A stretch of 64,000 nt of DNA, taken from contig NZ_CP146614.1 of the NCBI RefSeq assembly GCF_037094685.1, positions 4,402,001 to 4,466,000 of the forward strand. Reading direction: 5' to 3'. Shown piece after piece: positions 5,488-27,306 of this stretch. Both the position numbers and the translations under genes were made by a program. The DNA comes from Massilia sp. METH4 (GTDB lineage Bacteria; Pseudomonadota; Gammaproteobacteria; Burkholderiales; Burkholderiaceae_D). Below the pieces are notes generated by a model. It was not told where the DNA came from and ran no database searches. It saw only the letters and a list, made by a program, of their open reading frames with translations. Position 1 is the first letter of the stretch. Each line of letters begins with the position of its first letter.

Positions 5488-5533
5488 TTGACGCGAAGGA
5501 TGGCGGTTAATAATATAACCGTAATTCTGATTT
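5488..5533 (+). promoter_or_regulatory. Sigma-70-type promoter with operator motif (site A) for the monooxygenase operon
   Basis: TTGACG (5488-5493), a 17-base spacer and TAATAT (5511-5516) form a good promoter. Overlapping and following the -10 is ATAACCGTAATTCTGATTT (5515-5533). The same pattern, ATAA-N6-TTCTRATTY, recurs at 12422 and 17205, and in reverse at 9695. A perfect inverted repeat CGGTTA-N6-TAACCG also spans 5504-5521. The position suits repression by a dimeric regulator. Confidence 0.5.
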
Positions 5534-5574: not shown

Positions 5575-6669
5575 ATGCGTTTCTCCGTCTTCCTCAACGC
5601 GCGCACGATGCGTGCCGACGCCGACAAGCAACTGATCACCGACCTGGAGGAGCACGCCCTGCTGGCCGGCGAACTGGGCTTCGACGCCATCTTCCTGCCC
5701 GACCACCATTTCAACGGCTACATGCCGGTGGCCAGCGACAGCTACATGTTCGCCTCCTACCTGGCGGCCAAGCTGCCGGACATGCATTTCGGCTTTTCCG
5801 TCACGTCGGTGCCGCTGCACCACCCGGTGCGTTTCGTCGAACGCATCAACATCCTCGACCACCTGACGAAGGGCAAGCTGCTGGTCGGCATCGGCTCGGG
5901 CACCACGCCGGAAGAGATGATCGGCTTCGGCGTGAACTACAAGGATGCCGGCCGCATCGCCGAGGAAAACCTGCAGGCGGCCGAAGCGCTGTGGAACAAG
6001 ACGGTCGATGACGCGCCGGTCGAGCTGGATGGCTTCCACAAGGGCCGCGTGCTGCAGCGCATCGCGCCGGCGCCGTATGGCGAAAAGCATGCGCGGCTGA
6101 TGCCGGTGGCGATGAAGGAAAGCAGCACCACGCGCGCGGCCGTCAACGGCTGGCCGGCCTTTATCCCCGCGTTCACGCCGCCGAAGATCGGCGGCACGGA
6201 ACCGCTCAGCCACGTCAAAAAATACTTCCGCAGCTACCACGAGCAGCTGCTGGCCGCCGGCCACCCGGCCGACACGGTGGCCGATGCGCTGTCGTGGACC
6301 ACGCACAGCTACCAGTGCGTGCACCTGGCGCCCACCGACGAACAGGCGCACAAGGAAGTGCTGGAAATCCTGACCTCGTACCAGGAAGCCATCGAACGCG
6401 AGGCGGCCTTCAACGCCAGGGCCGAAGCGGACGAGGCAAACCGGAAGACCGACCGCACGAACAACGCGCTGACCGAGGAATGGATGGCCACCTGGTGCCT
6501 GTACGGCAGCCCGGAAACCGTGATCGGGAAACTGCGGGACTACCAGGAAGTCGGCATCGGCAATATCCTGTGCGGCACGGTGACCGGCCCGTTGACGGAA
6601 AAGCGCCTGGCCTATGCGAACCAGACGCTGCGCCTGCTGGCCGAACACGTGCTGCCAGCCTTCAAGTGA
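5575..6669 (+). CDS. Luciferase-like (LLM class) flavin-dependent monooxygenase
   Basis: This 364-residue protein belongs to the bacterial luciferase-like TIM-barrel family. Family features include the N-terminal strand with FLPDHHFNGY, the VTSVPLHHPVR block and the KGKLLVGIGSGTTPEEMIGFG flavin/phosphate region. Such enzymes use FMNH2 delivered by a separate reductase to hydroxylate or oxidatively cleave an organic substrate. A reductase gene lies two genes downstream in the same operon (9085-9693), which fits a two-component system. The start at 5575 (MRFSVFL) is preferred: it has AAAGGG upstream, and the longer frame would run through the promoter. Context points to an aglycone or related aromatic substrate, but the substrate is not determinable from sequence. 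Confidence 0.85.
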   Translation: MRFSVFLNARTMRADADKQLITDLEEHALLAGELGFDAIFLPDHHFNGYMPVASDSYMFASYLAAKLPDMHFGFSVTSVPLHHPVRFVERINILDHLTKGKLLVGIGSGTTPEEMIGFGVNYKDAGRIAEENLQAAEALWNKTVDDAPVELDGFHKGRVLQRIAPAPYGEKHARLMPVAMKESSTTRAAVNGWPAFIPAFTPPKIGGTEPLSHVKKYFRSYHEQLLAAGHPADTVADALSWTTHSYQCVHLAPTDEQAHKEVLEILTSYQEAIEREAAFNARAEADEANRKTDRTNNALTEEWMATWCLYGSPETVIGKLRDYQEVGIGNILCGTVTGPLTEKRLAYANQTLRLLAEHVLPAFK

Positions 6670-6694
6670 CGCGCCGCCTGCCGTGGAGAACACC

Positions 6695-9088: not shown

Positions 9089-9693
9089 ACCACACCACCA
9101 ATGCGGCCCGCGCCAGCGGCCGTGCGCCATTCGTCGTCGGCATCGGCGGCACGACCCGCCCCGGCTCCAGCACCGAATGCGCGCTGCGCGCCGCATTGCG
9201 GCATGCGCGGGAGCTGGGCGCCGAGACCCGCCTGTTCGGCGGCGAGGCGCTGGCAGCGCTGCCCGGCTATTCGCCGGAGCAGAGCGAACGCACGGCAGGG
9301 CAGCGCGACCTGGTCGAGGCGGTGCGGCGCGCCGACGCCGTGATCTTCGCCTCGCCCGGATACCACGGCGGCGTCTCGGGTCTCGTCAAGAACGCCATCG
9401 ACCTGCTGGAAGACCTGCGCGCGGACGAGCGCGTGTACCTGGACGGCATGCCGGTCGGCTGCATCGTCACCGCGGCCGGCTGGCAGGGCTGCAATACCAC
9501 CTTGGCGGCCATGCGCTCGATCGTGCATGCGCTGCGCGGCTGGCCGACGCCGCTGGGCGTGACGCTCAACACGGCCGGCGTGAAGCTGTTCGACGGCGAT
9601 GGCCAGTGCCTGGAGGCGCAGGTGAGCGCGAGCCTGCGCACCCTGGCCGAACAGGTGGTGGGCGTGCGCAATCCCGCACCCGCGGCAGCATAA
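9085..9693 (+). CDS. NAD(P)H-dependent FMN reductase
   Basis: This 202-residue flavodoxin-like reductase starts at a GTG that overlaps the GH3 stop in a GTGA quartet; GGAGA lies upstream. The FMN-binding loop GGTTRPGSSTE (about residues 22-32) and the FASPGYHGGVSGLVKNAIDLL segment are typical of the SsuE/ArsH/ChrR-like NADPH-dependent FMN reductase family. It probably supplies reduced FMN to the luciferase-like monooxygenase encoded first in the operon. The monooxygenase, glucosidase and reductase genes form one tightly packed transcription unit. Confidence 0.85.
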   Translation: MNHTTNAARASGRAPFVVGIGGTTRPGSSTECALRAALRHARELGAETRLFGGEALAALPGYSPEQSERTAGQRDLVEAVRRADAVIFASPGYHGGVSGLVKNAIDLLEDLRADERVYLDGMPVGCIVTAAGWQGCNTTLAAMRSIVHALRGWPTPLGVTLNTAGVKLFDGDGQCLEAQVSASLRTLAEQVVGVRNPAPAAA

Positions 9694-10004
9694 AAAACAA
9701 GAATTACGGTTCTAAAACCGTGCTATGCTGGATTCCACATGACGCCCGGCCATGACGGGCGCGTGCGGACACAAGAACATTGGAGACAAAACGCATGACC
9801 TGCCAGATCCACCCCTGCGCGGCCGGCACGGCCGCGACCCCGCCTCCCGCACCAACTTGCCGTTGATCCACCGGCCCGCGCCGCCACCGGCACGCGGGTC
9901 CGCGCAAGCGAATCGATAACGCCAGCTTGTCCGGCCGCTCCGCGCGGCACCGGCAAGGGCGCCGTGCGCCCCGTTGGCCCGCAGTCCCGAAAGAAAGGTG
10001 ATTC
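9694..10004. other. 311-bp intergenic region with reversed operator motif and a tiny ORF
   Basis: The region starts with the reversed copy of the block-wide motif (site B, 9695-9713). This merges into a perfect palindrome ACGGTTCTAAAACCGT (9707-9722) next to a -10-like TATGCT (9724-9729). A 23-codon ORF at 9795-9866 has a GGAGA Shine-Dalgarno sequence with the usual spacing; it may be a leader peptide or a remnant. No further feature is seen up to the start at 10005. Confidence 0.45.
9695..9722 (-). promoter_or_regulatory. Operator motif (site B) and palindrome before the GMC operon
   Basis: Read on the minus strand, this is AGAACCGTAATTCTTGTTT, matching sites A and C in the CCGTAATTCT core. 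The plus strand adds a perfect ACGGTT-CTAA-AACCGT palindrome (9707-9722). It is likely bound by the same regulator as sites A and C. Confidence 0.45.
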
Positions 10005-10661
10005 ATGACGATCAGTAAAGTGCAGTTCCGCCGGCAGCGGCCGGCCGCCGCGGGCGAAGGCCGCGTCGACAATCCGTCGCGCCGCGACGTGCTGGCCGCG
10101 CTGTTGGCAGGCGCGCTGGCTACTGCGTGGACCGGCTCCGCCGCGGGCGCCGCGCTGAAGGCCGCCGGCGCGGCCGCACCGGCGCGGTCCGCCCTGAACG
10201 CCGGCGAGATGGCGGTACTCGGCGCCGCCGCGCAGGTGATCATCCCCACGACCGACACGCCCGGCGCGCGCGAAGCGGGCGTGCCGCAGTTCATCGGCGC
10301 CCTGTACGCAGGCTGGATGACGGACGCCGAAGCGGCCGCCTTCCGCGGCGGCCTGGCCGGGCTGGACGACAGCGCGCGGCAGCGCTGGCAGCGCGGCTTC
10401 GCCGACTGCACGCCGGAGCAGGGCGCCGAACTGCTGCAGGCGCTGCGCGCGGCCAGCCCGTATGGCGGGCGCACGTTCTCGCTGGCCGACCGCATCCTCG
10501 ACCCGAAGGCGCCGTTCTACCTGCGGCTGCGCGACCTGGTCGTGCTGGGCTACTTCACGTCCGAGACGGGCAGCAACCGCGAGCTGCGCTACATGCCGGT
10601 GCCCGGCAAGTTCGAAGCGAATGTCGACATCAAGACCTGGCCCTACCAGGTCGTCATCTGA
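10005..10661 (+). CDS. Gluconate 2-dehydrogenase subunit 3-family protein, Tat-exported
   Basis: The 218-residue protein has a twin-arginine signal (NPSRRDVLAALLAGALA, about residues 24-42) followed by a domain of the gluconate-2-dehydrogenase subunit 3 family (LNAGEMAVLGAAAQVIIPTTDTPGAREAGVPQFI...). These small subunits escort or stabilise a GMC flavoprotein, which rides through the Tat system as a complex. The GMC gene follows 8 bases after its stop, so the two are almost certainly a heterodimer acting in the periplasm. No cytochrome c subunit gene is present nearby, so the electron acceptor is unknown. Confidence 0.88.
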   Translation: MTISKVQFRRQRPAAAGEGRVDNPSRRDVLAALLAGALATAWTGSAAGAALKAAGAAAPARSALNAGEMAVLGAAAQVIIPTTDTPGAREAGVPQFIGALYAGWMTDAEAAAFRGGLAGLDDSARQRWQRGFADCTPEQGAELLQALRAASPYGGRTFSLADRILDPKAPFYLRLRDLVVLGYFTSETGSNRELRYMPVPGKFEANVDIKTWPYQVVI

Positions 10662-10669
10662 GGACCATC

Positions 10670-12376
10670 ATGAAGAAGGACATGAGCAAGGGCGCGCAAT
10701 TCGACGCCATCGTGATCGGCTCGGGCATCACGGGCGGCTGGGCCGCCAAGGAGCTGACCGAGAAGGGGCTGAAGGTGCTGGTACTGGAGCGCGGCGCGAA
10801 GGTCGAGCACCAGACGGGATACATCCACGAATTCACGCCGCCGTGGCAGGCGCCCAATGGCGGGCTGCCCGAGCGCGAGCTGTTTGCGCGCGACTATGAA
10901 ATCCAGAGCAAGATCGAGCGGGGTGCCTTCAGCTGGGCCAACCGCCACTACTGGATCAACGACCGTGAAAATCCGTACGAGCAGGTAAAACCGTTCCGCT
11001 GGCACCGCACCAATGTGCTGGGCGGGCGCTCGCTGACCTGGGGCCGGCAGTCCTACCGCTGGGGCAACGACGACTTTCTCGCCAATGCCCGCGATGGCCA
11101 CGGCAACGACTGGCCGATCCGCTACGCCGACCTGGCGCCGTGGTATAGCCACGTCGAAAAATTCATCGGCGTGAGCGGCCAGCCCGAAGGCCTGGAGCAT
11201 TTTCCCGACGGCGAGTACCTGCCGCCAATGGAGATGACGGCGCTGGAGCGCGCGCTGAAGGAACGCATCGAGGCGAAGTGGCGGGACCGCCGCGTGACGA
11301 TCGGGCGCGTGGCCAATCTGACCGTGGAGCACAATGGCCGCGGCGCTTGCCAGAACCGCAATATCTGCAACCGCGGCTGCTCGTTCGGCGCCTATTTCAG
11401 CTCGCTCAGCTCGACCCTGCCGGCGGCACAGAAGACCGGGCGGCTGACGATCCGCACCGACAGCGTGGTGGAATCGATCGAGGTCGATCCGAAGACGAAG
11501 CGGGCCACCGGCGTGCGCGTGATCGACGCGAAGAGCGGCCAGCGGCTCACGTTCAAGGCGCGCGTCATCTTCCTGTGCGCCTCCACCTACGGCACCTTGC
11601 AGGTGCTGCTGCAATCGCGCAGCGCCACTCACCCGAACGGCATCGGCAACCACAGCGACAAGCTGGGGCGCTACCTGGTCGACCACCACGGCGTGGCCGC
11701 GTTCGGGGAGATCAAGGGTTTCGAGGACCGCAACTACAAGGGGCGCCGCGCCACCGGCATCCTGATCCCGCGCTTTCGCAACGTGGGCAGGCAGGACGAG
11801 GACGCCGACTTCACGCGCGGCTACGGCTTCCAGGGCGGCGCCATGCGCGACGACTGGACCAACACGGCGGCGCTCACCGACGACTTCGGCGCCGGCATGA
11901 AGCACAACATCGCGCGGCCTGGCAAGTGGGTGGCCTTCCTGGGCGCGTTCGGCGAACAGCTGCCGCAGGCGCACAACCGCGTCACGCTCAACGACAGGAA
12001 GCCCGGCAACCATGGCTTGCCGCAGCTGAGCTTCGACGTGGCCTACGGCGAGAACGAGAGAAAAATGGCCGTCGACGCCGGCAGGCAGGCCGAGCAGATG
12101 CTGAAGGCGGCCGGCGCCGAGCGCGTGCAGCTGATCCCCGTGCGGACCATGCCCGGCGTATCCATCCACGAGATGGGCGGCGCGCGCATGGGGCACGACC
12201 CGGCCGAGTCGGTGCTCAATGCGCACAACCAGGTGCATGGGGTGGACAACCTGTTCGTCACCGATGGCGCGGCCATGGCGTCGGCGGGCACCGTCAATCC
12301 CTCGCTCACCTACATGGCGTTGACGGTGCGCGCGGTCGACTACGCGGTGGCCCAGATCAAGGCTGGCCGGATCTGA
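10670..12376 (+). CDS. GMC-family FAD oxidoreductase, probable glycoside/sugar 3-dehydrogenase
   Basis: This 568-residue flavoprotein opens with the FAD-binding Rossmann motif VIGSGITGGWAAKEL. It carries the cysteine-containing block CQNRNICNRGC (about 224-234), typical of bacterial glucoside 3-dehydrogenase-like GMC enzymes. It ends with the catalytic HEMGGARMG (about 499) and TVNPSLTYMAL (about 541) motifs. The paired Tat small subunit upstream suggests periplasmic action. A predicted C-glycoside deglycosidase lies in the same block, and such enzymes require a 3-oxo-glycoside. The most economical role is therefore oxidation of the sugar C3 hydroxyl of glycosides. Other sugars or alcohols cannot be excluded. 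The gene is followed by the operon starting at 12456. Confidence 0.85.
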   Translation: MKKDMSKGAQFDAIVIGSGITGGWAAKELTEKGLKVLVLERGAKVEHQTGYIHEFTPPWQAPNGGLPERELFARDYEIQSKIERGAFSWANRHYWINDRENPYEQVKPFRWHRTNVLGGRSLTWGRQSYRWGNDDFLANARDGHGNDWPIRYADLAPWYSHVEKFIGVSGQPEGLEHFPDGEYLPPMEMTALERALKERIEAKWRDRRVTIGRVANLTVEHNGRGACQNRNICNRGCSFGAYFSSLSSTLPAAQKTGRLTIRTDSVVESIEVDPKTKRATGVRVIDAKSGQRLTFKARVIFLCASTYGTLQVLLQSRSATHPNGIGNHSDKLGRYLVDHHGVAAFGEIKGFEDRNYKGRRATGILIPRFRNVGRQDEDADFTRGYGFQGGAMRDDWTNTAALTDDFGAGMKHNIARPGKWVAFLGAFGEQLPQAHNRVTLNDRKPGNHGLPQLSFDVAYGENERKMAVDAGRQAEQMLKAAGAERVQLIPVRTMPGVSIHEMGGARMGHDPAESVLNAHNQVHGVDNLFVTDGAAMASAGTVNPSLTYMALTVRAVDYAVAQIKAGRI

Positions 12377-12421
12377 TGCCCGCGAAGCGGGGGCGCGCAC
12401 CCGCTTTGTTTTGCTTCGAAT

Positions 12422-12440
12422 ATAACGGTAATTCTAATTC
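12422..12440 (+). promoter_or_regulatory. Operator motif (site C) overlapping a TATAAC -10 element
   Basis: ATAACGGTAATTCTAATTC begins within the -10-like TATAAC (12421-12426), 16 bp before the isomerase start at 12456. The arrangement equals site A. The operon behind it contains the TetR gene, which would make control autoregulatory. Confidence 0.5.
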
Positions 12441-12455
12441 TTGAAAGGGCAAGGC

Positions 12456-13400
12456 ATGACGACCCCCAAACTGCGCTGGGCTTATATGGATCACTGGCGC
12501 ATCGATACGCCGCAGGGCCAGCTGTCGCAATACACGTCCGTGAAGCGCTTCGACGCCTTCCTGAAGCAGATCTCGGCGCTGGGCTTCGAGGCCATCGAAA
12601 CCTTCGACTTCCACCTCGGTCCGCTGCGCGAGCTGTTCGGCTCGCTGGAAAACGCCCGCGCCTTCATGCAGGAGCGCGGCATCGACCGCGTGCTGAGCCT
12701 GTTCCACGCGGTGATGTACGACGAGCGGCAGAGCGCGCCGCACGTGCGGGCCACGCATGACCACATCTTCAACTACGCGCAGCACATCATGCGCTCTTCC
12801 GCCGGCCTGGGGGTGCAGAACTTCATCGTCATGCCGGCCGGCCTGTACTACGACGTGGAACCGGTCACCGACGACAAGCTGCGCGCCTGCGCCGAATTGT
12901 GGAACCGCGTCGGCAAGATGACGCTGGACCATGGCGTGAAGACGTGCTGCCACCATGAATTCTTCTGCGGCATCCGCTCCGCCGAACAGCTGCGCAAGTT
13001 CTACGAGTGGACCGATCCGCGCTACGTGTTCCTGTGCCTGGACACGGCGCAGCACGTGATCGCCGGCGTCGATCCCGTCGACCTGTACCTGGAGCTGCAC
13101 GAGCGCTGCGCCGCGTTCCACATGAAGGACACGAAGCACGTCGACCTGGTGGGCGACTACCGCCGCAAGCCCGATGCCGAGGTGATGGCGACGACCACGC
13201 CGCGCTGGTTCCACGAGATGGGCACGCCCGGCGGCCTGGTGGACTTCCCGGCGCTGATGGCGGCGATGAAGGAGTGCGGCTTTGAAGGCTGGGTCGGCGT
13301 CGAGCACGACAAGGCCGACGTGGGCGGCGGCAACTACCCGGAAAGCACGGCGCTGGCGGCATGGTACATCCAGCACGTGCTGAAGAAAATCTACGCGTGA
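12456..13400 (+). CDS. Sugar phosphate isomerase/epimerase-family protein (TIM barrel) 1
   Basis: The 314-residue protein belongs to the xylose-isomerase-like TIM-barrel (AP endonuclease 2) superfamily. Likely metal ligands are spread over the strands: CCHHEFF (about 168), LCLDTAQH (about 195), FHMKDTKH (about 222) and VGVEHDKAD (about 285). Members isomerise, epimerise or dehydrate keto-sugars and cyclitols (for example the IolE and IolI groups). The start at 12456 is chosen because AAAGGG lies upstream; a TTG 15 bases earlier is in frame but would include that site. It heads an operon with a second paralogue, an MFS carrier, a third paralogue and the TetR regulator. It probably processes the keto-sugar produced by the neighbouring GMC enzyme; the exact reaction is unknown. 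Confidence 0.8.
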   Translation: MTTPKLRWAYMDHWRIDTPQGQLSQYTSVKRFDAFLKQISALGFEAIETFDFHLGPLRELFGSLENARAFMQERGIDRVLSLFHAVMYDERQSAPHVRATHDHIFNYAQHIMRSSAGLGVQNFIVMPAGLYYDVEPVTDDKLRACAELWNRVGKMTLDHGVKTCCHHEFFCGIRSAEQLRKFYEWTDPRYVFLCLDTAQHVIAGVDPVDLYLELHERCAAFHMKDTKHVDLVGDYRRKPDAEVMATTTPRWFHEMGTPGGLVDFPALMAAMKECGFEGWVGVEHDKADVGGGNYPESTALAAWYIQHVLKKIYA

Positions 13401-13408
13401 GGCAGGTA

Positions 13409-14389
13409 ATGAACGGACAGATCAAATGGGCGTACGGCGTCAACCAGTGGAAGGCCGGCTTCACCAGCTTCGCGCGGCTCGAGGAAATCGAACGGGCGCT
13501 GAAGGTGACCGCCGCCTGCGGCTTCGACGCGGTCGAGCTGAACGCGGGCAGCGGCCGCTGGGACCCGATCGGGCGCCCGGAGAACATCGCGATCAACTTC
13601 GGATCGGCGGCGCATTTCCGCCTGAAGCTGGCCGAGCTCGGCATCCACCGCGTGTCCAGCACCTTCTTCGATCCGACGGTGATGAGTTTCGAGGAACTGC
13701 ATTTCGGCCTGATGAGCACCCAGCCGGCGGACCGCGACCGGATCGTCGCCCAGGCGCGCATTCATGCCGGGATGCTGGCGGAAGTGGGCGGCGACGTGCT
13801 CGTGGTGCGGCCGTTCCCGTCGTTCTGGAAGGAGGGCGCGCTCGACGAAACCCGCATGGCCGCCGCCGCGGCCTGCTGGAACGCCGTCGGCGCCATGGCC
13901 GCCTCGCTGGGCCTGAAGACGGCGCTGCATGTCGATGCGCTGTCGGCACTGCGCACGGCCGACGAACTGGATCGCCTGCTGCAACTGTGCGACAGCGACA
14001 ACGTGGGCCTGGCCATCGACACGGCGGAACTGACCATCGCCGGCCATGACGTGGTGGCGCTGTACCGCCGCTTCCACGAACGCGTGCTGCACTTCCACTT
14101 CAAGGATGCGCTGGCCGTCGACACGCTGGGCGAGTACCGCCTGCCGAACGCCGAACGGGCCATGATCGCGGCGGGTGGGGAGCGCGAGGTGCAGCGCTGG
14201 TTCGGCGAGATGGGGAGCGGGCTGGTGGACTTCCCGGCGCTGCTGGCGGCAATGCGCGAACTGGGCTACGCGGGCTGGATCGTCGTCGAAAGCGACAAGG
14301 GGCCCGAGCCGATCGCGAGCGGCATGATGCTCAACGCCTGGTACCGGCGCCATGTGCTGGAGCGGGCCGGCGACCTTTCGCTGCGCTGA
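13409..14389 (+). CDS. Sugar phosphate isomerase/epimerase-family protein (TIM barrel) 2
   Basis: The 326-residue protein is a divergent paralogue of the preceding gene, 8 bases downstream of it. The opening segments WAYGVNQWKAGF and IKWAYG parallel LRWAYMDHW in the first copy, and the C-termini share EMG-LVDFPALMAAM-E-G. Probable metal ligands sit in TALHVDAL (about 173), LAIDTAEL (about 198), HFHFKDA (about 231) and IVVESDKG (about 292). A histidine replaces the usual glutamate in the first of these, so chemistry may differ from copy 1. The two may form a heteromer or catalyse successive steps on the same sugar. Confidence 0.78.
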   Translation: MNGQIKWAYGVNQWKAGFTSFARLEEIERALKVTAACGFDAVELNAGSGRWDPIGRPENIAINFGSAAHFRLKLAELGIHRVSSTFFDPTVMSFEELHFGLMSTQPADRDRIVAQARIHAGMLAEVGGDVLVVRPFPSFWKEGALDETRMAAAAACWNAVGAMAASLGLKTALHVDALSALRTADELDRLLQLCDSDNVGLAIDTAELTIAGHDVVALYRRFHERVLHFHFKDALAVDTLGEYRLPNAERAMIAAGGEREVQRWFGEMGSGLVDFPALLAAMRELGYAGWIVVESDKGPEPIASGMMLNAWYRRHVLERAGDLSLR

Positions 14390-14401
14390 TCGGGAGGCGC
14401 C

Positions 14402-15637
14402 ATGAACCTCCACGAGACGGGCGCCGAGGAAGGCGCCAGGCAAGGTGCCAAGGAAGGGGCCAGGCATGGCGGGGCGGCGCCTGCGCGTACCGCCGGCCGC
14501 GCGCAAGGCATCGCGCTGATGGCGATCCTGGCCATGCCCACGCTGGCGCTGGCCGCGCTGGTCCCGGGCCTGCCGCAACTGTTCCAGCAGTTTTCCGCGG
14601 TGCCGAACTTCCAGCTGCTGGTGCCGATGATCATCACGGTGCCGTCGCTGTGCGTGGCGCTGTTTTCCGGGTTCATGGGTGCCATCGCCGACCGCTGGGG
14701 GCGGCGCCGGCTGCTGCTGGCGGCGCTGTTCGCCTTCGCCCTGCTGGGGCTCGCGCCGCTGATGTTCGACAGCCTGCTGCTCATCGTCGCCAGCCGCGTC
14801 GTCGTCGGGCTGGCCGAGGCGGCCATCCTCACGGTGGGCAATGCGCTGATGGGCGATTATTTCGAAGGCGAGGAGCGGCAGAAGTGGCTGGGCTACCAGA
14901 ACATGTTCGCGCCGCTCATCGGCTCGGCCATCCTGCTCTCCGGCGGTTTCCTGGCCGGCGTGCACTGGCGCTATCCGTTCCTGCTGTACCTCTCCGGCTT
15001 CGCCGTGCTGGCGCTGGTCTTCTTCGTCTGCCATGAGCCGCGCAGGGGCGCCGCCGAAGCGGAGCGGCCCGCGGCCACGCCATTCCCCTGGCGCGTGTCG
15101 CTGCTCGTGTGCGGCGTGACGATCCTGTTCGCGCTGGTGTTCTTCGTGCAGGCCGTGCAGCACGGCCGCATCTTCGCCGACATGGGCGTGGCGTCGCCGG
15201 AGCGCATCAGCGTGCTGGCCACGGTGGCCAGCCTGGGCACCGTGCTGGGCGGCTACCTGTTCAAGCGCTTCGGCGGCCTGTCGGTGACGACGTGGATGGC
15301 CATCGTGCTGGCCTTCTATGGCGTCAGCTACGTCGGCGTGGCGTGGGCGCCCGATCTCGTCGTCGGCCTGCCGCTCGACGCGCTGGGCCAGGTCGGCGGC
15401 GGGCTGATGCTGCCGGTGCTCGTCACCTGGGCCTTGCAGCACTACGGCTTCGAACACCGCGGCCGCGGCATGGGCCTGTGGGGCGGCTCGTTCTTCCTGG
15501 GCCAGTTCCTCAGCCCGCCGTTGCTGACCCTGATCGGCAGCTTCGGTTTCACTTTCCTCGGCAGCGTGGCCGTGGTGGGCGCAGCCTGCGCCGCCGCCGC
15601 GCTCGTGCTGCTCGTCACTCACCTGAAAGAGACATGA
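14402..15637 (+). CDS. MFS transporter 1
   Basis: This 411-residue protein has about 12 transmembrane segments after a charged cytoplasmic N-terminus of roughly 38 residues. The classic MFS loop 2-3 motif is present (GAIADRWGRRRLLL, about residue 95). A repeated G-A-R/K-E-G pattern (EEGARQGAKEGARHGG) makes up much of the unusual N-terminal tail. It lies 12 bases after the second isomerase gene and 1 base before the third, so it is part of the same operon. It likely imports the glycoside, the free sugar or an oxidised sugar; an export role is also possible. A second MFS carrier of the same general type is encoded at 17272. Confidence 0.85.
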   Translation: MNLHETGAEEGARQGAKEGARHGGAAPARTAGRAQGIALMAILAMPTLALAALVPGLPQLFQQFSAVPNFQLLVPMIITVPSLCVALFSGFMGAIADRWGRRRLLLAALFAFALLGLAPLMFDSLLLIVASRVVVGLAEAAILTVGNALMGDYFEGEERQKWLGYQNMFAPLIGSAILLSGGFLAGVHWRYPFLLYLSGFAVLALVFFVCHEPRRGAAEAERPAATPFPWRVSLLVCGVTILFALVFFVQAVQHGRIFADMGVASPERISVLATVASLGTVLGGYLFKRFGGLSVTTWMAIVLAFYGVSYVGVAWAPDLVVGLPLDALGQVGGGLMLPVLVTWALQHYGFEHRGRGMGLWGGSFFLGQFLSPPLLTLIGSFGFTFLGSVAVVGAACAAAALVLLVTHLKET

Positions 15638-15638
15638 C

Positions 15639-16412
15639 ATGCAATTCGCAGCCTGTATCGAATGGATGTTTGCGGACGCCGGCGCGGACCTGCCGGCGCG
15701 CATCCACGCCGCCGCCGCGGCCGGCCTCAAATCCGTGGAATTCCACCTGTGGCGCGACAAGCCGCTCGATGCCATCGAGGCGGCGCTGCGCCAGACCGGC
15801 GTGCGCCTGCGCAGCTTCTGCGTCGACCCGCGCCGCAGCCTGGCCGACCCCGCAGACCATGACGCCGTGCTGGCGGCGGTGGCCGATGCGATCCCGGTCG
15901 CACGGCGCTTCCAGGGCGCGGCGATGATCCTCGCTTCGGGCTTCACGCGCCCCGGCGTGCCGGACCAGGAGCAGTTCGACGCGGTGGTCGCGGTGCTCAG
16001 GCGCGCGGCGGCGCTGGCCGAAGCGTCGGGTACCACGCTGTGGCTCGAGCCGGTGTACATGATCGTTGGCGGCCAGCGCATGTTCGTCGACACGATCGGG
16101 CGCGGGCTCGATATCGTGGCCGCCGTCGACAGTCCCGCACTGCGCCTTCTGGCGGACGTGTTCCATGCCGCGCAAACGGGCGAGGCGTTCGGCCCGGCCG
16201 TGCGCGGCCGCATGGCGCTGGTGGGGCATGTGCAGGTGGCCGACACGGGCGGGCGGCACGAACCGGGCACGGGCGATATCGACTGGGGGCACGTGATGGC
16301 CGCGCTGCGCGACGGGAAGTATGCCGGGGAGATCGGGCTGGAGTACTTCCCCACCTTGCCGGACGTTGCATCGCTGGCAGCCGCGCGCCGGGCGCTGGGC
16401 CTGGCCGACTGA
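15639..16412 (+). CDS. Hydroxypyruvate isomerase-like TIM-barrel protein
   Basis: The 257-residue protein matches the Hyi/OtnI-like group: FAACIEWMF at the start, LWLEPVYM, then the highly typical VGHVQVADTGGRHEPGTGDIDW and IGLEYFP blocks near the C-terminus. Hyi interconverts hydroxypyruvate and tartronate semialdehyde, while relatives act on four- to six-carbon keto-sugars. The position between a transporter and the regulator within a glycoside locus favours a keto-sugar substrate rather than glyoxylate metabolism. It starts 1 base after the MFS stop codon and is co-transcribed with it. Confidence 0.8.
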   Translation: MQFAACIEWMFADAGADLPARIHAAAAAGLKSVEFHLWRDKPLDAIEAALRQTGVRLRSFCVDPRRSLADPADHDAVLAAVADAIPVARRFQGAAMILASGFTRPGVPDQEQFDAVVAVLRRAAALAEASGTTLWLEPVYMIVGGQRMFVDTIGRGLDIVAAVDSPALRLLADVFHAAQTGEAFGPAVRGRMALVGHVQVADTGGRHEPGTGDIDWGHVMAALRDGKYAGEIGLEYFPTLPDVASLAAARRALGLAD

Positions 16413-16422
16413 CGGCCAGGCC

Positions 16423-17070
16423 ATGCCGCCCACCAGTGCCCATGCCCGTGCGCCCAAGCAGGGCCGGAGCCGCGAATCCTTCGAACGCATCATCGCCGCC
16501 ACCCTGGACCTGCTGGGCGAACGCGCTTATGACCAGATCACGCTGGCCGAAATCTGCCGGCGCGCCGGCGTATCCACCGGGTCGCTGTACGGCCGGGTCG
16601 ATGGCAAGGACGAGCTGCTGCGCGTGGTGCAGGTGCGCTTCCTCGCCGGTCTTGCCGGGCAGTTCACCCGCGAGGCGGACCGCATCGCCGCCGAGGCGCG
16701 CGGGCTGGAGCAGGTCGTGCCGGCCGTCGTCCGCGGCCTCGGCGCCCTGCTGAAGGACAATGCCAGCCTGCTGCGCGCGTTCATGCTGCGGGGCACCAGC
16801 GACCCGGTCATCGGCGCCGCGGGCAAGAAGTCGGCACTGGAGACGTTTGCGAAGTTCATCGCACTGCTCCAGACGTGCCGCGGCGAGATCCGCCATCCGC
16901 ACCCCGACCGGGCCATCGAGACCGGCATACAGCTCATCTACGCCACGCAGGCGCGCTTCCTGGGGCTGGACAGCATCGGCCGGCTGGACGAGGCGGGCAG
17001 CTGGAGCCAGTTCCTGGACGACCTGTCGGACATGCTGCTGGCCTTCCTGCTGTTCAGGCCCGGCCGATAA
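16423..17070 (+). CDS. TetR-family transcriptional regulator
   Basis: The 215-residue protein has an N-terminal TetR helix-turn-helix (about 25-70; DQITLAEICRRAGVSTGSLYGRV) and a helical ligand domain that I cannot assign. It starts 10 bases after the Hyi-like gene and closes the operon that begins at 12456. It is the only dedicated regulator in the glycoside block. It is therefore the natural candidate to bind the shared motif at 5515, 9695, 12422 and 17205 and to respond to a glycoside, sugar or aglycone. Confidence 0.88.
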   Translation: MPPTSAHARAPKQGRSRESFERIIAATLDLLGERAYDQITLAEICRRAGVSTGSLYGRVDGKDELLRVVQVRFLAGLAGQFTREADRIAAEARGLEQVVPAVVRGLGALLKDNASLLRAFMLRGTSDPVIGAAGKKSALETFAKFIALLQTCRGEIRHPHPDRAIETGIQLIYATQARFLGLDSIGRLDEAGSWSQFLDDLSDMLLAFLLFRPGR

Positions 17071-17204
17071 ACAGTCGAAAAACGGTCGAGGCGCGGCCAA
17101 CGTGCAGCCACGGGGCGCTATCGAAGACCTGGATAGGTGCTATCCATACAAACCGGTGGCGTCGATGCACTTTTTGATGGGAAAAGGCGGCGGGAAGCGA
17201 TATC

Positions 17205-17223
17205 ATAATTTCAGTTCTGATTT
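17205..17223 (+). promoter_or_regulatory. Operator motif (site D) before the second MFS gene
   Basis: ATAATTTCAGTTCTGATTT begins inside the -10-like CATAAT (17204-17209). It keeps the ATAA and TTCTGATTT halves of site A at the same spacing, with a different centre. It heads the unit MFS - deglycosidase alpha - deglycosidase beta. Confidence 0.4.
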
Positions 17224-17271
17224 CCCCCGCTGAAGCAGCCAGAGAGCTGCACACCATCCAGGAGACACACG

Positions 17272-18480
17272 ATGCAGAGCAACAGCCCCCAAGCACACCG
17301 CCAGGCCGACTGGCGCCAGGGATGGATCCTCGTCTTTTCCGGCTTCCTGCCGGTGATGGCGATCATCGCCCTCGCGCCCACCTTGCCCACGCTGCTGGCG
17401 CACTTCCACGACGTACCCAATGCCAGACTGATGGTGCCGCTGCTGATCACGGCGCCCAGCGCGTGCATCGCGCTGTTTGCCCCTGCGGCCGGCGCCATCG
17501 CCGACCGGTTTGGCCGCCGCAAGCTGCTGCTGTGGGCCATGGCCCTGTACGGCGCCGGCGGCCTGCTGCCTTTCTTCATCGATAATTTCTGGGCCGTGGT
17601 GGCGGGGCGCTTCGTGATCGGCATCGGCGAGGCCGGCGTGCTCACCGTCGTCAACACGCTGCTGGCCGACTATTACGAGGAGCAGGCGCGCCACCGCTGG
17701 CTGATGATCCAGGGCGTGGTCGGGTCCATGCTCGGCACGCTCACCATCGCCTGCTCGGGCTTCCTTGCCGCGCAGGGCTGGCAATTCCCCTTCCTCGTGT
17801 ATGGCGTGGCGATCCCGATCTTCCTCGCCAGCCTGGCCTTCCTGTTCGAACCGGCGCCGCGCGGCAAGCGCCTGCATAAAACCGACGGCGCGCCGACCGC
17901 CACGCCGTTCCCCAAGCTCGTCGCGCTGATGGTGTGCGGTGTGACGGTGGTGCTGTCGACGATCTACTACGTCCAGGTGATCAATTTTTCGCTGCTGCTC
18001 AAGGAAATGGGCGTTGGTGATCCCAAGTCGATCGGGCTGTGGATGGCGATCCCCAGCATCGGCGTGCCGATCGGCGCCGTCATCTTCCGCTACACGACGC
18101 GCTTCGGCGCCGGGGCGCAGATCTTCCTCGTGTTCGTCGGCTATGCCATCGGCCTGGGCGGCATCGGCATGGCGCCGGACTACAAGGTCGCGCTGGCCTT
18201 CGCGTTCGTGCAGCAGCTGGCCAACGGCATCATCGTGCCCGCCCTGATCGCCTGGACACAGAGCAAGTACTCGTTCGAACACCGCGGCCAGGGCATGGGC
18301 TGGTGGGCCAGCTCCTTCTTCGTGGCCCAGTTCCTGTCGCCCGCCGCCGTGAACGCCATGCGTGGCCTGGTGGGCGACTTGCAGGGCGCATTCCTGGCCT
18401 TCGGCATCATTGCCGGCGTGTGCGCCCTCGGCGCCGTGCTGCTGCGGCTGCGGCGGCCGCCGGCACCCGCCTACTCGTAG
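17272..18480 (+). CDS. MFS transporter 2
   Basis: The 402-residue protein has about 12 transmembrane segments and the MFS signature GAIADRFGRRKLLLW (about residue 72). It is closely related to the MFS carrier at 14402: the SFEHRGQGMGWW-SSFF block matches GFEHRGRGMGLWGGSFF there, and both share a phosphate-like H(D)VPNA/F start and P-L-I-TAPS/TVPS second segment. A strong CCAGGAGAC ribosome-binding site precedes the ATG. It is the first gene before the C-glycoside deglycosidase subunits, so it may carry the C-glycoside or its 3-oxo form. Confidence 0.86.
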   Translation: MQSNSPQAHRQADWRQGWILVFSGFLPVMAIIALAPTLPTLLAHFHDVPNARLMVPLLITAPSACIALFAPAAGAIADRFGRRKLLLWAMALYGAGGLLPFFIDNFWAVVAGRFVIGIGEAGVLTVVNTLLADYYEEQARHRWLMIQGVVGSMLGTLTIACSGFLAAQGWQFPFLVYGVAIPIFLASLAFLFEPAPRGKRLHKTDGAPTATPFPKLVALMVCGVTVVLSTIYYVQVINFSLLLKEMGVGDPKSIGLWMAIPSIGVPIGAVIFRYTTRFGAGAQIFLVFVGYAIGLGGIGMAPDYKVALAFAFVQQLANGIIVPALIAWTQSKYSFEHRGQGMGWWASSFFVAQFLSPAAVNAMRGLVGDLQGAFLAFGIIAGVCALGAVLLRLRRPPAPAYS

Positions 18481-18510
18481 CCTCACCGCCGCAACCGGCG
18501 GCCGCACATT

Positions 18511-18542
18511 GGTGTCGGACATCCCTCGGGATATCGGACACC
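18511..18542. promoter_or_regulatory. 32-bp near-perfect dyad between MFS and deglycosidase genes
   Basis: GGTGTCGGACATCCC and GGGATATCGGACACC are inverted repeats with two mismatches around TC, followed by GGTTTTCC. It could be a terminator or attenuator after the MFS gene, or an extended operator 75 bp upstream of the deglycosidase alpha start. The near absence of a loop argues more for a protein-binding palindrome. Confidence 0.45.
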
Positions 18543-18616
18543 GGTTTTCCCCACCATTCACCAGGGCCCGCGACAGGGCCAGGGACCCCTGCATCCCGAA
18601 TATCCAGAGGAATCAC

Positions 18617-19606
18617 ATGACCACATCCCACCAGATCAAGCGCGGCGTCTCCCTGTACAGCTACCAGTACGAGACCTTCCTTCGCCAGATGACCCTCGAC
18701 GACTGCATCGCCCACGCCGCCGGCCTCGGCGCGCGCGGCATCGAAGTCGTCAGCGAACAGTCGTTCACCGGCTTCCCGGACGTGCCCGAGGAGCAGGTGG
18801 CCGGCTGGTTCGCCTCGCTCGAACGCCATGGCGCGTATCCGCAATGCCACGACATGTTCCTGGACGTGAAGCTGTACAAGGACCGCAAGCTGAACTTCGA
18901 CGAGATGGTCGCCTCCCTGAAACGCGACCTGCGCTTCGCCAAGCGCATCGGCTGCCGGAACGTGCGCATCATCGTCAACACGCCGCCGGAAGTGGTGGTC
19001 GCCTGCGTGCCGCTGGCCGAGGAACTCGACGTGCGCATGGGCATCGAGGTGCATTCGCCCTTCCACTTCGACCACCCATGGATATTGCGCTACACGGAAC
19101 TCACGCGTGCCACCGGTTCGGACCACGTGGGCTACGTGCCCGACATGGGCATGTACACGAAAAACTACCCTCCGGTGTTCCGCGACCGCTTCCTGCGCAT
19201 GGGCGCGACACCGAAGATCGTCGAATTCATCCTGCAGGCGCATGCCGCGCGCGTGCTGCCCGACTACGTGCTGATGGACGTGCGCAAGATGGGCGCCAAC
19301 GCCGTGGATTTGCAGATGGCCGAGACGCTGCGCCACAACATCTGGAGCAATCCGCGCCGCATGCTCGAGTTCATGCCGTGGATCTTCAACATCCACGCCA
19401 AGTTCTACGAGATCGACGACAGCGGGCGCGAACCGGCCATTCCCTACGAGGAGATCATCCCCGTGCTGATCGAGGGCGGCTACGACGGCCACCTGTCCAG
19501 CGAATACGAAGGCCAGCGCCACATCGAGGATGCCTTCGAGGTCGACGGCCGCGAGCAGGTACGGCGGCAACAGGAAATGTTCAAGCGCCTGCTGGGCGAA
19601 GTCTGA
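18617..19606 (+). CDS. C-glycoside deglycosidase alpha subunit (predicted)
   Basis: The 329-residue TIM-barrel protein matches my recollection of the bacterial C-glycoside deglycosidase alpha family (DfgA/CarB type): the opening KRGVSLYSYQYETFLRQM, CHDMFLDVKLYK, IIVNTPPEV, GIEVHSPFHFDHPWI and SSEYEGQRHIEDAFEVD. Probable metal ligands are Glu about 142, Asp about 176, His about 260 and Glu about 296. With its beta partner, this class cleaves the C-C bond between the sugar anomeric carbon and an aromatic carbon of a 3-oxo-C-glycoside, by beta-elimination. The next gene encodes the matching beta subunit. The GMC enzyme at 10670 could supply the 3-oxo substrate. A generic isomerase is the alternative reading. 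Confidence 0.8.
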   Translation: MTTSHQIKRGVSLYSYQYETFLRQMTLDDCIAHAAGLGARGIEVVSEQSFTGFPDVPEEQVAGWFASLERHGAYPQCHDMFLDVKLYKDRKLNFDEMVASLKRDLRFAKRIGCRNVRIIVNTPPEVVVACVPLAEELDVRMGIEVHSPFHFDHPWILRYTELTRATGSDHVGYVPDMGMYTKNYPPVFRDRFLRMGATPKIVEFILQAHAARVLPDYVLMDVRKMGANAVDLQMAETLRHNIWSNPRRMLEFMPWIFNIHAKFYEIDDSGREPAIPYEEIIPVLIEGGYDGHLSSEYEGQRHIEDAFEVDGREQVRRQQEMFKRLLGEV

Positions 19607-19637
19607 CAACCGCGGTCTGGAAAGAAAAGGAGAAACC

Positions 19638-20030
19638 ATGTACGACCAGCACATCATCTATCCCGGCAGCGTGCGCAATACCGACGACGGCGCCGGCTGG
19701 CAACTGGGCGCGCGCCTGCCGTATTACCGGGGCCAGATCCTCTCGGCCGTCGAGGATATCGCCTTGACCGTGGACGGCAACAGGGTCCCGCGCGAACACG
19801 TGCGCTTCACGGTGCGCGGCATGACCTTCACGCTCGACGAGCTGGAGACCGAATATGTCGAACGCTGGGAATTCGGCGAAGTCGCGCAGGTCACCGTCCT
19901 GCAGCCCGGCGGGCTGCCGCCCGGCGAACACGAGGTGACGGCGGCGGTCCAGCTGCGCATCTCCTACCTGCCGTGGAGTCCCGTGACCAGCTGCACGGCA
20001 CGCGCGGCCATCGAGGCGGCGCACACTTAA
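19638..20030 (+). CDS. C-glycoside deglycosidase beta subunit (predicted)
   Basis: This 130-residue all-beta protein has the hallmarks of the small deglycosidase subunit family (DfgB/CarC type, formerly a domain of unknown function): LPYYRGQILSAVEDIALTVDG, a ERWEFGE segment, and PGGLPPGEHEVTAAVQLRISYLP near the end. In the characterised enzymes this subunit packs on the barrel of the alpha subunit and helps to complete the active site. It starts 31 bases after the alpha gene with AAAGGAGAAA before the ATG. The fixed pairing is the main support for the enzyme assignment. Confidence 0.82.
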   Translation: MYDQHIIYPGSVRNTDDGAGWQLGARLPYYRGQILSAVEDIALTVDGNRVPREHVRFTVRGMTFTLDELETEYVERWEFGEVAQVTVLQPGGLPPGEHEVTAAVQLRISYLPWSPVTSCTARAAIEAAHT

Positions 20031-20251: not shown

Positions 20252-22480
20252 ATGAAGCACCCCAAGCCCAGCGCCATCGCCCATGCCCTCTGCGCCGCCG
20301 GCTGCCTGTCCTTGTCGGCCGGCGTCGCCGCGCAGGCCGGTGACGCCAGCCAGGAAGCACGGCCGGACCGCGGCGGCATCGCCGAAGTGATCATCACCGC
20401 GCAAAAGGTGGCGCAGCCCGCCAGCAAGACGCCGCTGGCGCTGTCGGTCGTGTCCGGCGACGACCTGAAGAACGCCGGCACGAACGACCCGCGCGCCCTG
20501 GCCGAGGCGCTGCCCAATGTCGAAATCGCCCAGGAGAGCGGCATGCTGCAGGTATCGATCCGCGGCGTGACGAGCCTGGACATGACGGAAAAGGGCGACC
20601 CCTCCGCCGCCTTCCATGTCGACGGCGCCTACATTCCACGCTACGAAGCGCAGGCGGCCGCCTTCTTCGACCTGGACCGCATCGAAGTGCTGCGCGGCCC
20701 GCAGGGCACGCTGTACGGCCGCAACGCCACGGCGGGCGCGATCAACCTGATCACGAACAAGCCCACGCGCAAGCTGGAAGGGAAGGTGGGCGTGGAGATC
20801 GGCAACTACCGCACGAAGCGGCTCGACGCCATGCTCAACGTGCCGCTCGGCGAGAACTGGGCGATGCGCGCGGCCATCAACACGAACAAGCACGATTCCT
20901 ACTACAACCCGGGGCCGAACACGATCGAGCTGGAAAGCCAGGACGACAAGTCGGCGCGCCTGCACCTGCTGGGCAACTTCGGCAAGGATACGAGCCTGCT
21001 GCTCACCGCCGAGAAGAACAGGATCGGCGGCGGTGCATCCTCACCGGTACCGATCACGAACTTCTTCGACGGCGAGCTGGTCGGCAAGCTGCCCTTCACG
21101 CCGGCGGGCCGTGGCAACCACATCAAGGACCCTGTGTATGTGGATCGCGGCAAGGACGTGCAGCGCACCACCTATTGGGAGTTCAAGCAGGACGCCGGCT
21201 CGCACCGCGACAACGAGGCGACCTCGCTGCGCGGCGAATTCAAGACCCGCGTGGCCGACATCGATGTCACCTACCAGCTGGCGAAGATGCGCCTGAAGCT
21301 GGACCAACTGAACAACGGCGTGTACTTCGGCTTCCCGTTCACCACATTGAACATCGGCGACAGCGACGCGGTATCGCACGAGTTCCGCCTGAACTCCACC
21401 GGCAACGGGCCGCTGCGCTGGGTGGCGGGCGTGTACAAGTTCGACGAGGACATCTTCCGCCGCGCCGCCTACACGACCTATGTCACCGCGCCATTCGGCC
21501 AGTTCAACATCCAGTTGCCGTTCCTCGCCACCTTGAACAACAAGTCCACGGCGGCCTTCGGCCAGGCCACCTGGGCGATCCGTCCCGATACGCGCCTGAT
21601 CGCCGGCGTGCGCCGCACGCGCGACCGCAAGTCCGGCTACGATCCGCTGTCCGGCGAGGCGGCCGTGCCGCCGGCCACGGAGAGCTCGAAGGCCTACTCG
21701 GAAGACGTGCGCTTCAATAACACCAGCTGGAAGCTCGGCATCGACCACGACCTGCGCCAGAACGTGATGGTGTACGGCTCCATCTCGACGGGCTACAAGG
21801 CCGGCGGCTTCAACGCCGAGCGCGATACGGGCGTGTACCGCCCCGAGACGCTGAAGGCCTACGAGGCCGGCATCAAGGGCCGCTTCCTGGACAACCGCCT
21901 GCAACTGTCGGCGAACGTGTTCCACTATGCGTACGAAGACCAGCAGCTGACGACGACGACCTGCCGCACGAACGATCCGGCCTCCTGCCATTCGTTCACG
22001 GCCAACGCGGCCAATTCGGAAGTCGACGGCGCCGAGTTCGAGGGCCAGCTGCGCGTGCTGGGCGACGGCACCTTGCGCGCCAGCCTGGCGTTCACGGACG
22101 CGAAATACAAGAACTACCAGCCGACCGCGACGATCGACTTCTCGGGCCAGAAGCTGGACCGGGCGCCGACATCGACCGTCGGGCTGGGCTACACGCATCA
22201 CTTCGCGGTGGCCAACGGCGGCGAGATCACGGCCACCGTGAACACCCGGCACTCGACGTCGTACTACATCAGCGACCCGGTCGAAGGTATCCGCTACCGC
22301 CAGCCTTCGTACTGGAAATCCGACGCGTCGATCGGCTACGCGAACCCGGACGGCACCTGGAACGTGCAGCTGTTCGTGAAGAACATCGAGGACACGGTGA
22401 AGATCGAGAGCCGCGTGCCGGGTTCGTTCTTCCTCAACGATCCGCGCACCTTCGGCGTGCGGGCCGCCTACAACTTCTGA
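20252..22480 (+). CDS. TonB-dependent outer-membrane receptor
   Basis: The 742-residue protein has a signal peptide (about 1-27), a TonB-box-like segment (IAEVIITAQKV), a plug domain (about 50-165 with DRIEVLRGPQGTLYGRNATAGAINLITNKP) and a beta-barrel ending in an aromatic residue (AAYNF). This type, with the VIVTAQK-like box, is common in bacteria that import plant or aromatic compounds and vitamins rather than siderophores only. Its place after the deglycosidase genes makes glycoside uptake the likely role. AGGAGA precedes the ATG; the longer upstream frame is not credible because it lacks a signal peptide. A hairpin follows at 22487-22519. Confidence 0.9.
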   Translation: MKHPKPSAIAHALCAAGCLSLSAGVAAQAGDASQEARPDRGGIAEVIITAQKVAQPASKTPLALSVVSGDDLKNAGTNDPRALAEALPNVEIAQESGMLQVSIRGVTSLDMTEKGDPSAAFHVDGAYIPRYEAQAAAFFDLDRIEVLRGPQGTLYGRNATAGAINLITNKPTRKLEGKVGVEIGNYRTKRLDAMLNVPLGENWAMRAAINTNKHDSYYNPGPNTIELESQDDKSARLHLLGNFGKDTSLLLTAEKNRIGGGASSPVPITNFFDGELVGKLPFTPAGRGNHIKDPVYVDRGKDVQRTTYWEFKQDAGSHRDNEATSLRGEFKTRVADIDVTYQLAKMRLKLDQLNNGVYFGFPFTTLNIGDSDAVSHEFRLNSTGNGPLRWVAGVYKFDEDIFRRAAYTTYVTAPFGQFNIQLPFLATLNNKSTAAFGQATWAIRPDTRLIAGVRRTRDRKSGYDPLSGEAAVPPATESSKAYSEDVRFNNTSWKLGIDHDLRQNVMVYGSISTGYKAGGFNAERDTGVYRPETLKAYEAGIKGRFLDNRLQLSANVFHYAYEDQQLTTTTCRTNDPASCHSFTANAANSEVDGAEFEGQLRVLGDGTLRASLAFTDAKYKNYQPTATIDFSGQKLDRAPTSTVGLGYTHHFAVANGGEITATVNTRHSTSYYISDPVEGIRYRQPSYWKSDASIGYANPDGTWNVQLFVKNIEDTVKIESRVPGSFFLNDPRTFGVRAAYNF

Positions 22481-23834: not shown

Positions 23835-23856
23835 AGACTTGATACCAGGAGACACC

Positions 23857-24930: not shown

Positions 24931-25196
24931 CCGAAGCAAGGACCGAAGCAATGACCGAAGCAAGGCTGGAAGGCGGGGTGTGGGACGACGTCGAGGAGGG
25001 CACCGAAGCCCTGTTGCAGGAATGGCTGGTGGCAACCGGCGACGAGGTGGCGGCCGGCCAGCCGCTGGCGATCGCCGAGCTGGTGAAGACGACGCACGAG
25101 GTGACCGCGCCGGTGGCGGGGCGCGTGACGGCGCTGCTGGTGGCGGCGGGCGAGACGTTCGGGCGCGCGCAGCCGCTGGCGCGGATCGGGGACTAG
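24927..25196 (+). CDS. Free-standing lipoyl-domain protein
   Basis: The 89-residue protein is a single biotinyl/lipoyl domain. Its acceptor lysine lies in IAELVKTTHEVTAPVAGRV (about residue 51), where the lysine turn reads LVKT rather than the usual TDKA. In typical complexes this domain is the N-terminal part of E2; here it is a separate polypeptide. The N-terminus holds a threefold MTEA/RTEA/MTEA repeat from a short DNA repeat, so a second ATG at 24951 is possible; the GGGAG spacing favours 24927. The lipoate ligase two genes downstream probably modifies it. Confidence 0.82.
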   Translation: MTEARTEAMTEARLEGGVWDDVEEGTEALLQEWLVATGDEVAAGQPLAIAELVKTTHEVTAPVAGRVTALLVAAGETFGRAQPLARIGD

Positions 25197-25199
25197 GCC

Positions 25200-27269: not shown

Positions 27270-27306
27270 GCGGCCGGCGCAGCACCATAACAATACAGGA
27301 GACAGC

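Follow-up and report, generated by a model that had tools for sequence, protein, structure and literature searches.

The window analysed here, a stretch of 64,000 nucleotides from Massilia sp. METH4 (G000:C1:4402001-4466000, from a 6.88-Mb genome in a single contig), carries a row of genes that includes both subunits of a predicted C-glycoside deglycosidase (CGD; CGDa and CGDb, together CGDab) (Table 1). A preliminary description had proposed a C-glycoside catabolic block between positions 10005 and 20030, and profile scans recovered the genes that it named at their places: a subunit with a twin-arginine translocation (Tat) signal (sub3), a GMC dehydrogenase, two MFS carriers, CGDa and CGDb, along with a TetR regulator. 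Its three further sugar isomerase-family proteins were resolved into two IolE-like (IolE1, IolE2) and one hydroxypyruvate-isomerase-like (Hyi) AP_endonuc_2 proteins. The TonB receptor assigned to the block is a real gene, located just outside that interval (20252-22480). The interval itself was drawn too short: the genes at 5575-9693, encoding a luciferase-like flavin monooxygenase (LLM), a GH3 protein and an FMN reductase, are part of the CGD unit, and both this group and the regulon described below had been missed. The ten closest named relatives of CGDa (87-95%) belong to Pseudoduganella, Duganella, Massilia and Telluria.

Table 1. Genes and predicted operator sites of the CGD unit (positions within the window).
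Feature	Position	Strand	Basis and remarks
Dyad before LLM	5511..5532	+	Matrix match, top 4 of window; predicted operator
LLM, luciferase-like flavin monooxygenase	5575..6669	+	PF00296, 139 bits; 62-70% relatives beside CGD in Alphaproteobacteria and Deinococcus
GH3 beta-glucosidase-like protein	6683..9088	+	PF01915/PF00933; linkage to CGD also in other groups
NAD(P)H-dependent FMN reductase	9085..9693	+	PF03358, 88 bits; linked to CGD elsewhere
Dyad before sub3-GMC	9696..9717	+	Matrix match, top 4; predicted operator
sub3, Tat-signal hitchhiker subunit, gluconate 2-dehydrogenase subunit 3 family	10005..10661	+	PF13618, 110 bits
GMC dehydrogenase catalytic subunit, FDH/GDH type, candidate glycoside 3-dehydrogenase	10670..12376	+	PDB matches; Cys 227, 233, 237
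Dyad before IolE1	12418..12439	+	Matrix match, top 4; predicted operator
IolE1, IolE/HYD-like AP_endonuc_2 protein 1	12456..13400	+	PF01261
IolE2, IolE/HYD-like AP_endonuc_2 protein 2	13409..14389	+	PF01261; 36% identity with IolE1
MFS carrier 1 (MFS1)	14402..15637	+	PF07690
Hyi, hydroxypyruvate-isomerase-like AP_endonuc_2 protein	15639..16412	+	TIGR03234, below cut-off
TetR regulator, candidate dyad binder	16423..17070	+	PF00440
Dyad before MFS2-CGDa-CGDb	17201..17222	+	Matrix match, top 4; predicted operator
MFS carrier 2 (MFS2)	17272..18480	+	PF07690; relative of at least 35% in 22/28 CGD loci
CGDa, CGD alpha subunit	18617..19606	+	53% identity to 8qvc_A; residue mapping
CGDb, CGD beta subunit	19638..20030	+	PF19906, 123 bits (cut-off 27.6)
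TonB-dependent receptor	20252..22480	+	PF00593/PF07715; follows CGDb in Oxalobacteraceae relatives

CGDa matched PDB 8qvc_A with 409 bits (53.4% identity across 326 residues), against 132-147 bits for seven other CGD chains, and the profile search of the beta-like protein gave a clear match to the deglycosidase beta family, which is the single PF19906 match of the whole genome. The two genes are separated by 31 bp. In AgCGD2 the metal ligands are Glu147, Asp179, His269, Lys271 and Glu305 (PMC8563793), and in PuCGE the catalytic residue is His143, with Tyr39 of the beta subunit being specifically important for C-glycosides (PMC10628242). Residue mapping placed the metal ligands of CGDa at E144, D176, H260, K262 and E296 and the catalytic histidine at H146, spaced as in known CGDs, and Y30 of CGDb aligned to Tyr39 of the PuCGE beta subunit. 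Five of the six active-site residues of CGDa were invariant in an alignment of 12 sequences, as was Y30 in all 10 beta sequences; the exception, H260, is replaced by Gln in the Croceicoccus copy (L074:13998-15005). The pair, called a deglycosidase in the preliminary description, is on these features almost certainly a true CGD, and its substrate class would be C- rather than O-glycosides. The closest solved relative, 8qvc, most likely comes from Deinococcus, because a protein of Deinococcus aetherius is 97% identical to 8qvc_A. The 8qvc structure probably stems from a 2024 JMB paper by Furlanetto et al. on D. aerius, whose title refers to C-glucosyl flavonoids and xanthonoids. In two other loci the CGD pair is followed, a few genes further downstream, by another, divergent one (L010:15905-17282 and L012:15969-17351), whose alpha subunits are 29-32% identical to that of the window.

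The putative oxidising partner is encoded by two adjoining genes, sub3 having the features of the Tat hitchhiker subunit of direct-electron-transfer FAD dehydrogenases of the fructose dehydrogenase (FDH) and BcGDH type. Its Tat motif, SRRDVLAALL, is retained in several relatives and unreadable in some others, where the predicted start extends past the true one; a signal peptide was not evident in the translations of GMC, CGDab, LLM and GH3 inspected by eye. The best PDB matches of the GMC protein were large subunits of fructose dehydrogenase (about 155 bits). Its Cys227, Cys233 and Cys237 form a C-x5-C-x3-C motif aligned with the fructose dehydrogenase cysteines, with the same spacing as the 3Fe-4S ligands Cys212/218/222 of BcGDH (PMC6719666). 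This motif was present in 20/20 GMC matches of at least 50% identity whose stretch covers it, a set that includes the window's own protein, the paralogue from the same genome (locus L055) and a few genomes twice; 11 further matches at this level were edge fragments short of the motif and were left uncounted. A CarA/PurA-type C-glycoside oxidase was considered as an identity for this protein and rejected, since the oxidase structures 7qf8, 7dve, 9fl2 and 8qve (POx/CGOx type) scored at most 54 bits, well short of fructose dehydrogenase, and the protein has the Fe-S cysteines. No multihaem cytochrome c subunit was recognised among the Pfam-scanned genes of the cluster, the genome not having been searched for one. 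A flavin-dependent glycoside dehydrogenase (GlycDH) is reported to oxidise C-glycosides in vitro (PMC10628242). The sub3-GMC pair is quite likely the oxidant for CGDab; the tie between both, already suggested in the preliminary description, is borne out by linkage, co-occurrence and a shared dyad.

The distribution of CGDb is patchy, being found in 12/74 genomes of the genus and in 14/392 genomes drawn from the family. GMC (at least 84%), LLM (at least 86%) and IolE1 (at least 88%) were each present in 11 of the 12 CGDb-positive genus genomes and in none of the 62 CGDb-negative ones (Fisher p = 2.9e-12, uncorrected for kinship), where the best matches reached 55% for GMC, 23% (56 bits) for LLM and at most 25 bits for IolE1. 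The twelfth positive genome (G023) has a 59% GMC protein inside its CGD unit, and is devoid of LLM and IolE1. In the ten other genomes that have LLM, it lies on the same contig as CGDb, at 17-32 kb. A chance neighbourhood was rejected on the basis of this co-occurrence and the shared dyad.

Linkage was further assessed in 28 CGDa loci from named genomes, with flanks of up to 10 kb, several of them shorter. GMC proteins of at least 50% were found in 8/28 and LLM in 7/28, and LLM, FMN reductase and GH3 recur near CGD in Nitrospirillum and related Alphaproteobacteria. Relatives of Hyi (51-56%) also adjoin CGD in Alphaproteobacteria. Novosphingobium PP1Y carries sub3, GMC, LLM, Hyi, CGDab and GH3 within one stretch, sub3-GMC stands within the CGD gene row in L010-L013 (L010 being the G023 locus), and sub3-GMC is also found near CGD on sphingomonad plasmids. 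Nine plasmid records were common to the best 20 GMC and the best 20 CGDa matches; the two genes were less than 10 kb apart in six of them (one of these pairs spanning the record start), about 15 kb apart in one, and far apart in two. On a D. aetherius plasmid, LLM, FMN reductase and GH3 occur near CGDab, as do ABC genes, aglycone-type genes and a GMC gene that lacks the Fe-S cysteines. LLM and FMN reductase thus recur with CGD across phyla, LLM with the dyad, and no step described in the cited papers requires them; they are regular members of the unit and would contribute a flavin-dependent step. In 8 of 10 relatives read (L080, L081, L083-L088), a further TonB receptor gene (49-52%) lies between FMN reductase and sub3, and this gene is not present in the window.

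A common putative operator is the other line of evidence joining these genes. An AT-rich core was first seen ahead of LLM, sub3 and IolE1; it occurs exactly in three places of the genome, all in the window, and one exact copy precedes LLM in D. aetherius. In full, the site forms a dyad of 22 bp with a 4-bp centre. Within 200 nt before LLM, the best dyad reached 12-16 of 16 in 20/20 LLM loci, a value of at least 12 being obtained in 18/2000 resamples. A matrix built from these sites gave 109 matches in 1.07 Mb, not all independent since some loci overlap the same genomes: 27 lay before LLM, 71 before other cluster genes, 0 only inside cluster genes and 11 elsewhere, versus 3, 1 and 1 matches in resamples. 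In nine loci of Alphaproteobacteria (L019, L021-L027, L029), CGDa itself is preceded by dyads counted among the 71. With a stricter matrix, trained on six LLM sites from Alphaproteobacteria and Deinococcus and on none from Oxalobacteraceae, the four window sites rank first in the 64 kb, scoring at least 19.4 against 7.1 for the next one, and local dinucleotide shuffles reached their scores in 1, 0, 0 and 0 of 300 cases. A pattern derived from the four sites matched the 6.88-Mb genome four times, only at those sites (control, 0), which is circular for the four and shows specificity. Proteins related to TetR (35-39%) are encoded next to CGD in Alphaproteobacteria and Deinococcus and share residues in the DNA-binding part; TetR is on this account the likely binder of the dyad. 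Between MFS2 and CGDa, a long imperfect dyad (18511-18542; 15-base arms, 2 mismatches) was noticed by eye, which could be a hairpin or a second operator.

The preliminary description had regarded the route as complete. This proved too strong, because the likely genes for the glucal hydratase, the keto-reductase and the aglycone are located in other parts of the genome. After elimination, hydration and then reduction are described (PMC10628242, section 7), and F4iso, an AP_endonuc_2 protein, occurs together with a Gfo/Idh protein in 18/28 CGD loci, directly after CGDb in most Oxalobacteraceae loci. On two Rhizobium plasmids F4iso has a Gfo/Idh gene and ABC genes as companions. Homologues in the Massilia genome are found at 5.78 Mb, 1.4 Mb away (F4iso, 73% to the alphaproteobacterial form; Gfo/Idh, 52%). 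This region, L055 (G000 5.773-5.782 Mb), holds a second sub3-GMC pair, the AP_endonuc_2 protein and the Gfo/Idh reductase, with genes resembling ABC sugar transporters between them as judged by eye, and is perhaps a separate 3-keto-glycoside route. The equation of F4iso with the hydratase of the AtGlycDH operon could not be shown. For the structure model of IolE1 (mean pLDDT 69.8), Foldseek placed the hydratase AtHYD (8ro4) second, and an attempt to assign the protein to a single reaction failed, as the 50 matches listed include AtHYD, IolE, 3-keto-glucoside lyases and epimerases alike, each at 11-19% identity. IolE1 and IolE2 may carry out the hydration instead, a question which the fold does not decide.

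Regarding the aglycone, at least two of five gene types (VOC, FMO, FrsA-like hydrolase, cyclase and FAAH) adjoin CGD in 10/28 loci. The VOC protein of this set was found at full length (at least 76%) in 12/12 CGDb-positive and 7/62 CGDb-negative genus genomes, one G056 fragment having been dropped. The Massilia genome has two VOC-FMO-hydrolase-cyclase-FAAH sets, at G000 4.273-4.284 Mb (L057) and 5.896-5.902 Mb (L056), which by family would act in aromatic ring cleavage.

Taken together, these data make it likely that the genes of this locus are regulated together and serve the catabolism of C-glucosides of plant polyphenols, possibly also of O,C-mixed glucosides. In the route we propose, the TonB receptor would bring the glycoside into the periplasm, where the Tat-exported sub3-GMC complex would oxidise C3 of the sugar, its electrons passing from FAD through the 3Fe-4S cluster to the respiratory chain and not to O2. 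An MFS carrier would then import the 3-oxo-glycoside into the cytosol, and CGDab would split the C-C bond by metal-dependent beta-elimination, yielding the aglycone and 2-hydroxy-3-keto-glucal. IolE/HYD-like proteins and a reductase, probably encoded in trans, would return the sugar to central metabolism. TetR, acting on the 22-bp dyad, would switch four units together, GH3 may remove extra O-glucose, and the LLM/FMN reductase pair may add a flavin-dependent step.

Several observations weigh against this interpretation, some of them through the rivals that they favour. The locus might serve mainly 3-oxo-O-glycosides by a generalist beta-eliminase route like that of AtGlycDH-AtOGE, with C-glycoside cleavage being incidental, an explanation that we consider unlikely. 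An O-linked substrate is possible since PuCGE cleaves 3-keto-O-glucosides as well as C-glucosides, and plant natural-product glycosides are reported to be mostly O-linked (PMC10628242). GH3, IolE1 and IolE2 are compatible with such a use, and the structures similar to the IolE1 model include AtHYD and 3-keto-glucoside lyases. Nevertheless, the CGD beta subunit and its Tyr are retained, and the closest solved relative is probably the Deinococcus enzyme, likely from the paper titled for C-glucosyl compounds. AtOGE, which is O-glycoside-specific, has no second subunit in the account given in PMC10628242. A much less probable alternative, to which we give little credence, is that two pathways lie side by side, sub3-GMC, IolE1, IolE2, MFS1 and Hyi serving O-glycosides and CGDab being fed by another oxidase. 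Sub3-GMC pairs do exist without CGD, as in L055, and the GMC proteins encoded near CGD in Deinococcus and in two Bacteroidota (24-25%) lack the Fe-S cysteines. However, the same dyad precedes both gene sets, sub3-GMC is inserted in the CGD gene row of L010-L013, and a GMC protein of at least 59% was never found without CGDb in the 74 genus genomes.

The remaining objections concern the reading of a jointly regulated C-glucoside locus itself. PurABC homologues of the oxidase type are reported from some Pseudomonadota (PMC12724307). The window cluster is devoid of F4iso and Gfo/Idh, the probable hydratase and reductase, and both aglycone-type sets of the genome lie outside the window without the dyad at their genes; the dyad matrix found no site in L055 or L057, and one unrelated site in L056. 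With the stricter matrix, no dyad was found in the window directly before CGDa, TonB or the next operon; CGDa would be read from MFS2, 136 bp upstream. With one mismatch allowed, the dyad core occurs in 10 places of the genome against 9 for the reversed control, and the dyad form was first noticed in the window, the MFS2 site being the one unused in finding it. The Fisher values overstate independence, since the genus genomes are related.

Among known systems, the Deinococcus CGD cluster shares CGDab (53-54% and 44% identical), LLM, FMN reductase, GH3, TetR and the dyad before LLM, and has aglycone-type genes. That of D. aetherius differs in its GMC protein without Fe-S cysteines, in having no sub3 annotated beside it and in an ABC sugar transporter, whereas the window has a predicted Tat-exported 3Fe-4S dehydrogenase, MFS carriers and TonB, and its aglycone-type genes are elsewhere in the genome. 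CarABC and PurABC of Microbacterium and Paenarthrobacter likewise combine GMC/FAD oxidation at C3 with a CGD pair (PMC8563793, PMC12724307), but CarA and PurA are described as oxidases and the window GMC is fructose dehydrogenase-like. DgpABC and DfgABE of gut bacteria share alpha/beta CGD cleavage with the same metal site (PMC8563793, PMC11170127), although DgpA, a Gfo/Idh/MocA enzyme, performs the oxidation for which the window would use an exported flavoprotein. The Agrobacterium GlycDH-AtOGE-AtHYD-Gfo operon has a flavin glycoside dehydrogenase, AP_endonuc_2-type enzymes and the same order of oxidation, elimination, hydration and reduction (PMC10628242); AtOGE, an O-glycoside eliminase, is described there as lacking a second subunit and has no sequence relationship with CGD, the two-subunit enzyme of the window. 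BcGDH and fructose dehydrogenase complexes (7w2j) share the hitchhiker Tat subunit, the GMC fold and the C-x5-C-x3-C motif (PMC6719666), but contain a multihaem c subunit, none being recognised among the Pfam-scanned genes of the window cluster, where the enzyme is predicted to be C3-glycoside-specific; the hitchhiker disulfide Cys213 is Gln in the window.

The cutting enzyme is thus of a known kind, and CGD has already been reported in Proteobacteria (PMC8563793). The first enzymes described for CGD routes are of the DgpA type or the CarA/PurA type (PMC8563793, PMC12724307), and the GlycDH operon is paired with an unrelated O-glycoside eliminase; for this reason a Tat-exported 3Fe-4S dehydrogenase coupled to CGD and sharing a putative operator with it is regarded as a new arrangement within the open-licence literature searched. 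Titles and abstract openings among the matches listed in that literature revealed neither a CGD combined with a Tat/Fe-S dehydrogenase nor a CGD operator. As plant conjugates, C-glycosides are very stable, and in the accounts considered here the soil route depends on an O2-consuming oxidase. If the proposal holds, Gram-negative root and soil bacteria would carry out oxidation and cleavage on opposite sides of the inner membrane and gain the electrons, and the conserved dyad would offer a simple genomic test for pathway members, which places LLM, a flavin monooxygenase that those accounts do not mention, in the pathway. A broader generalisation, which we put forward only tentatively and with some doubt, is a respiratory, O2-independent breakdown of C-glycosides, with periplasmic C3 oxidation by a 3Fe-4S dehydrogenase and cytosolic C-C cleavage, control through a TetR operator common to Deinococcus and Proteobacteria, and an LLM/FMN-reductase two-component monooxygenase as an unrecognised regular step.

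Beyond the unit, the window contains a second pair of a Tat-type sub3 (PF13618 slightly under the cut-off) and a GMC protein (26727-28884), about 25-29% to the first, adjoining a 2-oxoacid dehydrogenase operon (22824-26674). The GMC protein of this pair (27307) has a C-x5-C-x3-C motif of its own.

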